Of a stretch of 64,000 nucleotides of DNA, positions 28,511 to 52,500 are shown in pieces; position 1 is the first letter of the stretch; each line of letters begins with the position of its first letter. The stretch covers positions 383,126 through 447,125 of the forward strand of contig RPFO01000448.1 in NCBI GenBank assembly GCA_009746045.1, given 5' to 3'. Made by a program: the position numbers and the translations under genes. The notes below the pieces were generated by a model. That model had not been told where the DNA came from. It was given only the letters and a program-made list of their open reading frames with translations, and made no database searches. This DNA is from Mesostigma viride. Lineage: Eukaryota; Streptophyta; Mesostigmatophyceae; Mesostigmatales; Mesostigmataceae.

Positions 28511-31500
28511 ATGCGGCTTCGCGTGCCCAAATTTAACATGGATGACGCTCAGGAGGTACGTAAAAATGCAGTGAGCGGCGGGTACTGGCATTCGATGCTA
28601 TTGCGCTTCGATGCTCAGGCAAGACATCGTAGGCACGCGTGGGATGTTTACGCCTTTTCGCCATTATCCGGTACTCCATCAGGCATCGGTGGTCACCGTT
28701 GAATCATGAATATTACTACGCATACGTATATAAGTCTAATTAATTAGACTACAGACAATTGTCTGTACATGGACCGTCCACAGATTGGGTATACTAGTGA
28801 CGGTCGGTTGTATCCCCTGGCTCTCCTCTTGGTGTTGCCCAACGGCGGTTGAGACAATGCGCCGGACTCTTCACTCCCTTGCACTTGCATGCCGATTCGA
28901 AGGCAAGCCTATGCTGGCATTGCCTTGGTACGTTGCCCTTGTAGCACCATAGTAGTATATAAATAAGCCTTGAGCTTTGAACACGACTTGCTGGAATGTG
29001 GGCAGTGCTAGTGTGATCCACCCATGTCGCATGGATATGCCCTCATTCTGCATGCTTACTAATAATGATAGACCGTCTACTTGCATGCCACGTGATGCTT
29101 TGCAGATGGCAGCCGTCCCCCCACCAGTCCTCGGCAGCTGCCTGCTGGCCTCCTTATGCATCCTTGCCCTGGCTTCCGCGTGTGGGGTGAGTGAGTGTAG
29201 TATAGTATTTTAAACATGCAGTCTAGTCTCAGCTTCACTGAACAAGTAAAAATGGTGCTTAACATCTTTCATGAAGCTGTCTTTTCCCCAGGGCCTGCAC
29301 ATTTCTGTGCACTGATCGAGGCCAGTGTGGCATGTGCAACCCTTAAGGGTATAGAGGCTTTAGTAGCCCAGCAGGTAGCATCGATGGCTTGGCAAAGCTT
29401 ACCTTTCGCGATTGGAAACAATGGTCTTCTTTCTACGTCAAACTCGCCAATCCAAGTGGCGAAGTCAAGTTGGCAGTGCGGCTCTCTCCAGGGAGGCAGT
29501 TAGCTGGAAGAAGCATCGGCCAGCTTTGGGTGTGCATTGTGAACTAGACGTGTGGCATTCCGTACCATGCCTGACTGCTCTGTGGAATGACCTCGCACCC
29601 CAACATCCAGCGATGAGATAGGACTATGCGTGGCAGCCTCCCTCCCTCCCTTAGCAACTTAAGTTTCCCTTTCCCTGATATCATAGGGTTGCGACCTGTG
29701 GACTGTTCTTGACACCCTCAACACCGGTTGCCTTTCAGGACCCCTGTTGGCCGGTGGCCCCTGCCTGCACATATCTATGCAGCCCCTTGGCTTTTATTGC
29801 TGTAACTTGTTAGCAGTTTCCCTGGAGCAACGATTGCCAGTGTCGCCGGTAGAAGCTATACGTCCTGCTTCCCTGTCTGCTGCGCAGCCAACCAGGCTAT
29901 CCTTGTGATTGGTGCCTGTGCTGCCCATGCATGCATTTGTGCACACGCGCGCAGGCTGCGAGGGAAGCCGTGCGTGGCACCAAGCTGGTGTCCAGGGCAG
30001 TGCCGGCACATTTTTCTCGGATGTGCAAAGAAGGACCCGTTTTGTGGGCTTTGGTAAGTGAAAGAAAATTCTTGCTGATATCTGTCTACTTGCCTACCAT
30101 GGCTGGCTGGCAAACTGACTGGCGGGCGGGCGGGCGGGCGGGCGGGCGGGCGGGCGGCGGGCGGGCGGGCGGGCGGGCGGGCGGGCGGCGGGCGGGCGGG
30201 CGGGCGGGCGGGCGGGCGGGCGGGCGGGCGGGCGGGCGGGCGGCGGGCGGGCGGGCGGGCGGGCGGGCGGGCGGGCGGGCGGGCGGGCGGGCGGGCGGCG
30301 GGCGGGCGGGCGGGCGGGCGGGCGGGCGGGCGGGCGGGCGGGCGGGCGGGCGGGCGGGCGGGCGGGCCGGCCGGCCGGCGGGCGGGCGGGCGGGCGGGCC
30401 GGCCGGCGGGCGGGAGGGCGAGTCGAACCGTGGCTGACTGGCTGGCTGGCTGGCTGGCTGTATTTTCTGAACAGGCAGATCAAGGTATATAACTGGCAGC
30501 ATGGCTGATGTGCACCATCCTCAGAGTGCCCCATCACATATGAATCTCATCACCAATCCCGACAGTGCGCGGCATGCATGTGCACCTTCTCACCTTGCAT
30601 GATGCCACCACCGGCACGTTGATGGCAGTCGGCATGCAGACCTCCACCCTGCATGCATCCACACGCAAATTTACACCACCCACCATGGGTGCACAACAGA
30701 GACAGGTTGCCACATCAACGTGATCGCACCAACCAGCGTGACAGTGCTCAACGCGTTGATAACGGCTCAGCAAGTACTAGAGCAATGATCCCGCTTCCAT
30801 CAATCCATGTATTGCTTTGTATGCCCTATCAAGCAAAGGCCATCCCACTACTTGTTCTTGGACCACTGCCTTGACCTTGATTATTTGCCTGCATAACAGC
30901 TGGCTTCCTTCGCCCTCCTAGTAGCCAACTCCACAGTATTCACGTTCTTATTAATTCTGACCATTCGCCCTATGTGCGTACTGCATATATTTGTTTGCCA
31001 ATTTAGTAGCCAACTCCACAGTATTCACGTTCTTATTCTGACCACTCGCCCTATGTACTTACCATGAATGCACCGCTGGGACCTTGGTGCTCCATGCAGG
31101 TCATCTTGGAGGTGCTTGTATTTTGTCAAGGCGTGCCACCACACATTCTGATCGCCCACGCCGGAACAGCTGGGTACCGCCTTCTCGACAGCCTGCAGGT
31201 ATGCTGGGATCATCGAGACACCGCACAGTAGACATATCAGGCACCGTTGGACTATAGCCCAGTGCCCCATAATAAATAGGCGTGGTACCACTGTTTCCAT
31301 GGCAGCCTATTGCTATGTTGAGGTTGTAAGCTGGGTATCGTGTATAGATGTTCCTTTTTAGTCAGGAATGAACTAGAGAGCTCGGTTTTATAGGATAGAG
31401 GATAGACCAGGGTGCCCCCTACAGTAAAGTGCCCCCACTGGCTCCGCCCAGCCCAACACGGCAGTTTTGAGCAAGCAACTAACTCGCGTGCAACCCGTGT

Positions 31501-49500: not shown

Positions 49501-52500
49501 TCCTCGTAGGTGCTACTACTTGCACGCATCTCTACGTTTTTTTTTTGTATTTTTTTTTTAATGGTCCCACTGGCTGCAGTAAAATAAGACAGCAAAGCCA
49601 AGCACACCTTGGCGAATGTTGTTTCTCAAGTATCCTGCAGAACGTTTCAATACAAAGCAGAGTGCAGCTTAGTCAGGATCTTACAATAGGAGCTTGCTGA
49701 CAAATAGCAGGCTCATATCTCTACAAGTAGCTCTGTCTACCTGGGGAGTCAGGCAGAGGGATCTGCTGCCACGACCTGGCACCATTGCTTTCCAACTACC
49801 TTGTGATCCCCTGCTACGATTGTTTCCTGCATGACTAACCTACTAAACATCTTGCTTTCGCATGCATCCTGCTTCATATGCCTCGTGAAATGCATGCCAC
49901 CTGCAGCTGCCCCCCCTCATGAAGTTTGCTGCCGTCCTGTTGCCAGGCATCGCCTTGGGCTGCTGCTTTTGTGGCGGCGCCGCTGCTGTTGGTGGATTCA
50001 TCTTCTGGGTGCGTGCTTGGAGATGGTACTTGACACTACCCACACGGCAGGCAAAACTTAGGCTAAACAGTGCAACACTGAACTTAGACTAGCGTGATCT
50101 TAGACTTGATTAATAGTTGAAGGTGGCACTGTGCGCAGCATGAAAAATGGATTCTAGAAGCGTTGAAGGGTTAAGGATTAGGCAGTGGAGTCATGTGGCT
50201 GCCTAACCTTTCTCCCTAATTGCTTATGGATGGCAGTGGTAAAGTTGAAGACCGGCTTTCCGTAACTGTCAAAAGCCGCAATAACAGTGCAGACGCACCA
50301 GGAGCTTGAGACGCAGCAGGAGCTTGAGCAGCAGCAGTGATGGTGGGATGTGCATACTGTTTGTGCCCGTTTGCTGCATGTGAGCCCCCTTGCCTTGAAC
50401 AGATTTTGAGGCCACATCTTTGTTGAGTGCGGGCTGTCCGCTTGTCCTCATTTTGTGTTCATTGGCACCTCTTGATAGGTCATTTGTCGCTTGTCACTGC
50501 TCCCCTGCATGGCTTCCACAACAGAGTAGCGAGTATGTGTCATCCAGGCATAATCTGACAGATGCACACGTATCAGAATATCCATCGACTGCAGACCAGG
50601 TGCATGAGAGAGCTATGATGCCTGAACCTGTGTCTTCTGCATCCATCATCGCCTTTCACTGTCTTCCGCACTAAACCCTCCATCTGTAACCCCCCTGTGG
50701 GGTCCAGGTAATCTCTCCCATGCCTTCAGTCGGCTTTTAACTTCTAGTACCAGCGCTCTTGTCGTAAACAAAGCCTTTCTTTCATGCAAGATAGCGTCCC
50801 ATGACATGCATATCCCAAGCACTCTCGATTGACTTCTTGTTATTAGGACTTACTTAGCCGTGCATGGTGCTCGCATCACGCACGGTTCCTCCCTAACTAC
50901 GGGTACTTGATGTGCTCCAGGTGGTGCTGCCAGGGGCCGAGAAAGCTGTTCCGCATGCCAAGCTGTTTGCTCACCAGGCGTCAGGTGGCCTGCAACGTAT
51001 CGGTCGACAGCAAAAGATGTTCTGGACTCAGGTACAGCGCAGTGCTGCGCCCCTCTACGCAGCAGTTTTGTCGGCTGCAACCGACTTGCATTGCGATCTT
51101 ATTTATGGACACTGCCTGCAGTATACTAGTGCGCAATCATGTATACTACTGTGCTTTTACAAAATCGCACTTTATCCATATTTGTGAATTAGAACTGTCA
51201 TTTGTAAGCGTTGTTTGCTGTATAACGATGTGTTTTGTGGGCACTGTGCGCTGATTCTCTGAAATTCATGTGATCGATCAGCTTTGAGGCACAGGGCATG
51301 CACAATTGGTGAAATAACCTTATATGAATTACTCATACCCTACACCCCCAGCAATAAAAAATAATGCCGAAAAGCATGTGGTGTGATTCCACGTATTAAA
51401 TCAGCCAAACAAGAGGAAGCTAGTGCAGCCTGCAGCATTCTTCCAAGAAGGATCACACAATCTTGCCATCCACATCTTGATTTACTCTCAGCCTGGCCAT
51501 CATACCCACCCTCATTATTGGACTCAGCCCTTGATTGACTGAGCCTTCTGTCGGCCTTGTCATTTCCAACCTTTCATCCCATGCACCGGCGCACGCACCT
51601 AGGTCTTCGTGGAAAGCGCCAGCTGGAGCAAGGCCACAACCACCAAGCACATCATCCCCTTGGTCCATGCCGCCAGGAAGTCCCTTGCTGGCCTCCGCCA
51701 CAAGCCCTCCCAGGCGTACACCCTTCTGCTGGCATCCGCGCGATCCCGAATCCCCCAGCTGGCAAAGTCTGCCGCGAGGAAGGTGGGCGCATGGAAGATT
51801 CAGCTGTCGTGGAGTAAGCAAGGCCACCCCCTCATGCAGCGATGGGCGGACATTCGGATCATACGGAACATCTTAGAGACATGGGGCATCGGCAAAGGTG
51901 CGGCTCAGGCTAGAGAACCCTCCTCGGGCCTCCCTAATGGATCGTCATGGGCGCCGGGCCACGAGCATGACTTCCAACGCAACTGGGCCCCGGGGACCCT
52001 GTACCAGCTCATGGAGGTGCAGGGTGACCTGCTCGACGGGTCCCTGGTGGAGAAGCTCGTGATTCCCCGCGGCCACATCGCTCGCCTGTGCAACGACGCG
52101 GTCCCGGGTTCCTGCGACGACCAGGCGACCAGGCTGGACTTTGGCGCGCTGGATGGCGTGGCCCAAGTGTGCTACGGCGTGGTGGGCAACCAGAGGGGGG
52201 CGATCCTGTCGCTGCTGGCAAACTTGGGCGTGCTGGGTGGTGGCGATGGCCAGCCAGACGATGAGGGCCAAACGGGCGAGCTGCTGCACAGGTCTCTACT
52301 GGAGGCCGCCCCTCCCGGGCTGTACGGGATGGTGATGCGCGAGAAGCAGGCTGAGGAAAAGGACGCTATGCGTTTCATGCCCGCCTTCAGTAACCATTTC
52401 CGCGCGCCCACAGGGCAGCTTGTAGGAGGAGATGGCATCACGCGCCAGGTCGTCTTTGTAGTCCTGTGGCCGCGTCCTGACGCCTTCTCCTCCATCTCCC

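Follow-up and report, generated by a model that had tools for sequence, protein, structure and literature searches.

A tandem exon-triplet array of predicted membrane hairpins joined to a GBP/atlastin-type GTPase in a gene model of Mesostigma viride

A 64,000-nucleotide window of Mesostigma viride DNA (contig RPFO01000448.1, positions 383,126 to 447,125; coordinates below count from its first letter) contains a plus-strand gene at 28511-57275 in which small exons of three types precede one large exon, and the question is what such a gene encodes. We conclude with moderate confidence that the product is a membrane protein of 2,699 residues, read from a presumed joined transcript. Its exon periodicity is real, and in this gene model the small exons form the N-terminal part of a giant GTPase, one of the VLIG/URGCP-GBP-RHD3 kind.

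Gene structure and exon periodicity

When joined, the start exon, 23 small exons and the long exon equal, letter for letter, P0001, the EukProt record jgi/Mesvir1/20789/Mv07899-RA.2 (2,699 aa). It should be noted that the 23 small exons were chosen from a splice-site scan before the sequence of P0001 was known, and that the start exon was added later. In a protein search, the GTPase part of the open frame 51603-57275 matched P0001 at 100% identity, and three more Mesvir1 proteins (P0002-P0004) at 57-60%. We take the label Mesvir1 to mean the streptophyte alga Mesostigma viride; the Mv identifiers presumably belong to the annotation of PMC7027972, a tie made from the label alone. All 24 introns are in phase 0, with a combined length of 20,665 bp, and 23 of the 25 exons span 81-135 bp, the start exon having 45 bp. 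The average Mesostigma gene has 4.81 exons with 329 bp per exon, according to the accessible part of PMC6947507.

The 22 phase-0 exons of 29955-51602 follow an invariant 1-2-3 order (eight of type 1, seven each of types 2 and 3), and a type-3-like exon at 29106 stands ahead of them. Leave-one-out profiles assigned the right type to 22 of 23 exons, compared to a mean of 7.7 and a best value of 15 in 300 label permutations, and none of 20,000 permutations reached the observed excess of within-type scores. Thus, the tandem three-exon module in one gene that a sequence-only reading of this DNA had described is confirmed, and its own test, that profile scores be higher within than between types, came out in its favor. 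The exons are as follows; the start and large exons rest on the join equal to P0001, the exon at 29106 on the join, hydropathy and type profiles, and the module exons on the join and type profiles.

28511..28555 (+), start exon, MRLRVPKFNMDDAQE
29106..29186 (+), type-3-like exon, first hydrophobic helix
29955..30053 (+), module 1 type 1
31100..31198 (+), module 1 type 2
32208..32312 (+), module 1 type 3
34171..34281 (+), module 2 type 1
35136..35240 (+), module 2 type 2
36655..36762 (+), module 2 type 3
38048..38146 (+), module 3 type 1
38617..38715 (+), module 3 type 2
39211..39315 (+), module 3 type 3
39757..39855 (+), module 4 type 1
40856..40945 (+), module 4 type 2, the sole leave-one-out misplacement
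41518..41622 (+), module 4 type 3
42157..42246 (+), module 5 type 1
43242..43343 (+), module 5 type 2
44379..44483 (+), module 5 type 3
45279..45389 (+), module 6 type 1
45968..46066 (+), module 6 type 2
46397..46507 (+), module 6 type 3
48023..48133 (+), module 7 type 1
49322..49456 (+), module 7 type 2, 45 codons
49907..50008 (+), module 7 type 3
50921..51031 (+), module 8, type 1 alone, final small exon
51603..57275 (+), large last exon (5.7 kb): in order, basic linker, family-conserved middle region, GTPase domain, Cys/His-rich end, stop codon
55410..56702 (+), modelled GTPase domain piece, P0001 residues 2079-2509 (motifs, model, fold comparison)

Codon choice separated the 23 small exons from 120 decoy exons (p 3e-12), no decoy reaching the median of the real exons. 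The score was trained on the long exon against an intron background that contained the decoys; the outcome was unchanged when the background was held out and 99 decoys were used. Third-position GC was 0.68 in the small exons, between the 0.48 of plus-strand decoys and the 0.77 of the long exon. Eight of the 24 introns hold tandem repeat arrays (30121-47968), the repeated units measuring 4 to 55 bp and the arrays up to ~870 bp.

Two protein searches with the array scored the candidates within set length limits that shared most words with it (7,985 in one search and 7,998 in the other); at E<=1 the first returned P0001 itself alone, and at E<=10 the second returned none. Because only these best word-sharing candidates were scored, this is weak evidence of the absence of the array elsewhere. 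Array pieces had no match in Pfam or among PDB sequences, and the first 37 residues of the large exon show no similarity to type 1 (Z -0.28). Judged by titles and the starts of abstracts, none of the retrieved literature describes P0001, whether on Mesostigma GTPases, VLIG/URGCP and GBP-like proteins, or on large GTPases with transmembrane parts, tandem exon duplication and symmetric exons. In the accessible part of PMC7027972, which reports transcript support for 9,198 predicted M. viride coding sequences (a genome-wide figure, not one for this gene), Mv07899 is not mentioned and "GTPase" occurs once only, inside a reference title; in that of PMC6947507, neither "GTPase" nor "guanylate" occurs. 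For the array, the earlier suggestion of an undescribed build is consistent with these limited searches, which found no sequence relative; it had overlooked the attached GTPase, which belongs to a widespread family.

Predicted membrane topology

Hydropathy of the small-exon array gave 19 peaks above 1.4. A hydrophobic peak crosses the 1-2 junction in all seven modules, its center lying 1-4 residues past the junction, and a peak is found at all eight 3-1 junctions, crossing five and ending at or shortly before the other three. The remaining four peaks overlap or adjoin others in long hydrophobic stretches and were left out of the helix count. Net charge is +2 to +5 in all eight type-1 exons versus -3 to +2 in the 15 other exons (p 6e-5). 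By the positive-inside rule, basic segments face the cytosol; therefore, type 1 is predicted to be cytosolic and the loop formed by types 2 and 3 to be lumenal or outside; the same rule would place the N-terminus outside and leave the long last exon cytosolic. The array is thus predicted to form about 15 transmembrane helices, two per module, with a cytosolic C-terminus. The earlier guess of a membrane-embedded repeat is probably correct, being well supported as a prediction. As for the exon-based repeating unit, the repetition stood, whereas the exons are not structural units, since predicted helices straddle every 1-2 junction and five of the eight 3-1 junctions.

An AlphaFold2 model of modules 3-4, built on an alignment to modules 1-2 and 5-6, showed four helices in each module at a mean predicted local distance difference test score (pLDDT) of 44.5. 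Because of this score, the helical character alone is worth noting, and the single repeating fold that the sequence-only reading inferred is at most putative. The amphipathic moment exceeded that of shuffled sequences at about the 2% level in four of eight type-1 segments, and so "amphipathic" is not claimed for every one of them.

The GTPase part and alternative readings

The assignment of the large exon to the GTPase family is a result of this analysis. P0001 carries the motifs in order, G1 GKQSTGKS at 2178, DFEGL at 2223 and KDV at 2293; among the 120 listed proteins, the G1 pattern occurs in 119, DxEGL in 108 and [KR]D[VF] in 89. The modelled GTPase domain has a GBP/atlastin-like fold, closest to GBP1, Sey1 and atlastin. 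Against Pfam at E<=1, P0001 matched three GTPase families and nothing else, with scores under all three cut-offs of the Pfam copy used; the protein database lists P0001 with PF25683 and PF05879. None of the 119 other relatives among the matches listed has an N-terminal array. P0001 ends within a Cys/His-rich part (57200-57275), and its three Mesostigma paralogues extend 406-890 residues further; the remainder of P0002 had no match in the 64-kb window at E 1e-3. P0004, encoded outside the window, has a C-terminal AAA ATPase domain (PF00004, E 2.8e-11).

The weakest link of the one-gene reading is the intron 51032-51602. It is rather unlikely, we believe, that gene prediction fused two neighbors here, a module-built polytopic membrane protein and a GTPase gene starting inside the large exon. 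Such a fusion would fit the annotated paralogues P0002-P0004, which are without any array, the homology of P0002 beginning only at P0001 residue 942; the first Met of the large exon at codon 78; and the downstream neighbor, which also opens with hairpin-like exons followed by an exon open to the window end. Conversely, the reading frame runs on across the plausible intron, the 77 codons before this Met have a coding-like score in that frame but in none of the others, the sequence read beyond the last type-1 exon looks non-coding, and the predicted cytosolic end of the array would suit a cytosolic GTPase. Against a single gene stand the arrayless paralogues and a limit of the coding score: of 1,467 overlapping windows from stop-free held-out intron stretches, 25% score equally high.

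Alternatively, the exons may be interchangeable cassettes, skipped or chosen alternatively, so that hairpin number varies and the complete array is rarely present. We regard this as unlikely: although every exon is phase 0-0 and hence skippable in frame, the neighboring gene has near-identical twin exons, and the ending RA.2 of the P0001 identifier may denote an isoform, the modules have diverged strongly, unlike recent cassettes, skipping of single exons would disrupt the two-helix topology, and all small exons are present in the annotated protein. That there is no homologous repeat, and that plain transmembrane exons are alike only by their hydrophobic/polar pattern, is highly improbable and already disfavored.

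Returning to the single gene, its first ~810 residues would be an array of homologous ~100-aa modules, each encoded by three phase-0 exons and giving two transmembrane helices, one over the 1-2 junction and one over or just before the 3-1 junction. Each module may comprise (i) a basic cytosolic type-1 segment and (ii) a longer, near-neutral, probably lumenal segment (type 2 end, type 3 start); the N-terminus would be lumenal or outside and the large GTPase-bearing part cytosolic. The array may have grown by exon-triplet duplication at phase-0 introns. Most likely, it would serve as a broad, many-hairpin anchor that holds a dynamin-type GTPase of the GBP/atlastin type on an endomembrane; there, GTPase domains that pair upon GTP binding could tether or reshape the membrane, with an extended or curved array distributing the force of pairing. 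The apparently new element, judged from sequence, is the presumed joining of the array with a GTPase of the GBP/VLIG type, which was seen in a single species. A less probable reading is that the array represents a new tandem membrane-repeat family, an extended hairpin blade, and the joined protein a GTP-driven membrane-shaping machine whose span could grow by duplication of exon triplets or be adjusted when modules are skipped in frame. A family member with ~15 helices arranged as repeated hairpins would mean that a membrane anchor can become a built-up scaffold; it would also connect, in this early streptophyte alga, a GTPase family known from immunity and endoplasmic reticulum fusion with a new membrane repeat. 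The layout of one exon per third of a module, with a predicted helix cut by an intron in seven of seven modules, would be a clean case for the study of membrane-repeat growth via phase-0 exon duplication.

Downstream lies a gene of similar style (59874-64000, +), with a hydrophobic first exon (59874-60047) and an exon at 63653 that is open to the window end. Its twin exons 60746-60856 and 61854-61964 differ at 8 of 111 bases and reflect a recent ~500-bp duplication. Elsewhere, 12767-16429 is an open frame of a retrotransposon that encodes a reverse transcriptase (RVT_1, E 1.4e-24), and similar fragments were seen by eye near 22716-23528 (minus; no Pfam match), at 42.6-42.8 kb and at 58.2-58.8 kb.

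Comparison with known systems

VLIG/URGCP-type giant GTPases (PF25683) occur in plants, algae, oomycetes and protists and are often listed with VWFA domains. P0001 has in common with them the GTPase domain with the family motifs, the preceding region and the start of the Cys/His-rich part; it differs in its N-terminal multi-hairpin array and is without the paralogues' extra 406-890 C-terminal residues. Piezo channels likewise embody the idea of a long repeated transmembrane array, with four helices per unit; scanning P0001 against Pfam at E<=1 yielded no Piezo-family match, and the P0001 unit has two predicted helices against four.

GBP and atlastin-type GTPases work at membranes through one anchor or a few. 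With atlastin, Sey1, RHD3 and plant GBPL2, P0001 shares the modelled GTPase fold and the predicted membrane attachment of a GBP-type GTPase. The transmembrane parts of these four are C-terminal, as given in the accessible part of PMC12034427, and a transmembrane domain of plant GBPL3 is described as not predictable in those of PMC12034427 and PMC9629626. No transmembrane part follows the GTPase in P0001, whose 14 above-threshold hydrophobic peaks all lie at or before residue 775, the GTPase motifs beginning at 2178. The ~15 predicted helices of P0001 instead stand N-terminally, ~1,300 residues ahead of the GTPase, and make up a predicted membrane part many times the size of that in its atlastin-type relatives.
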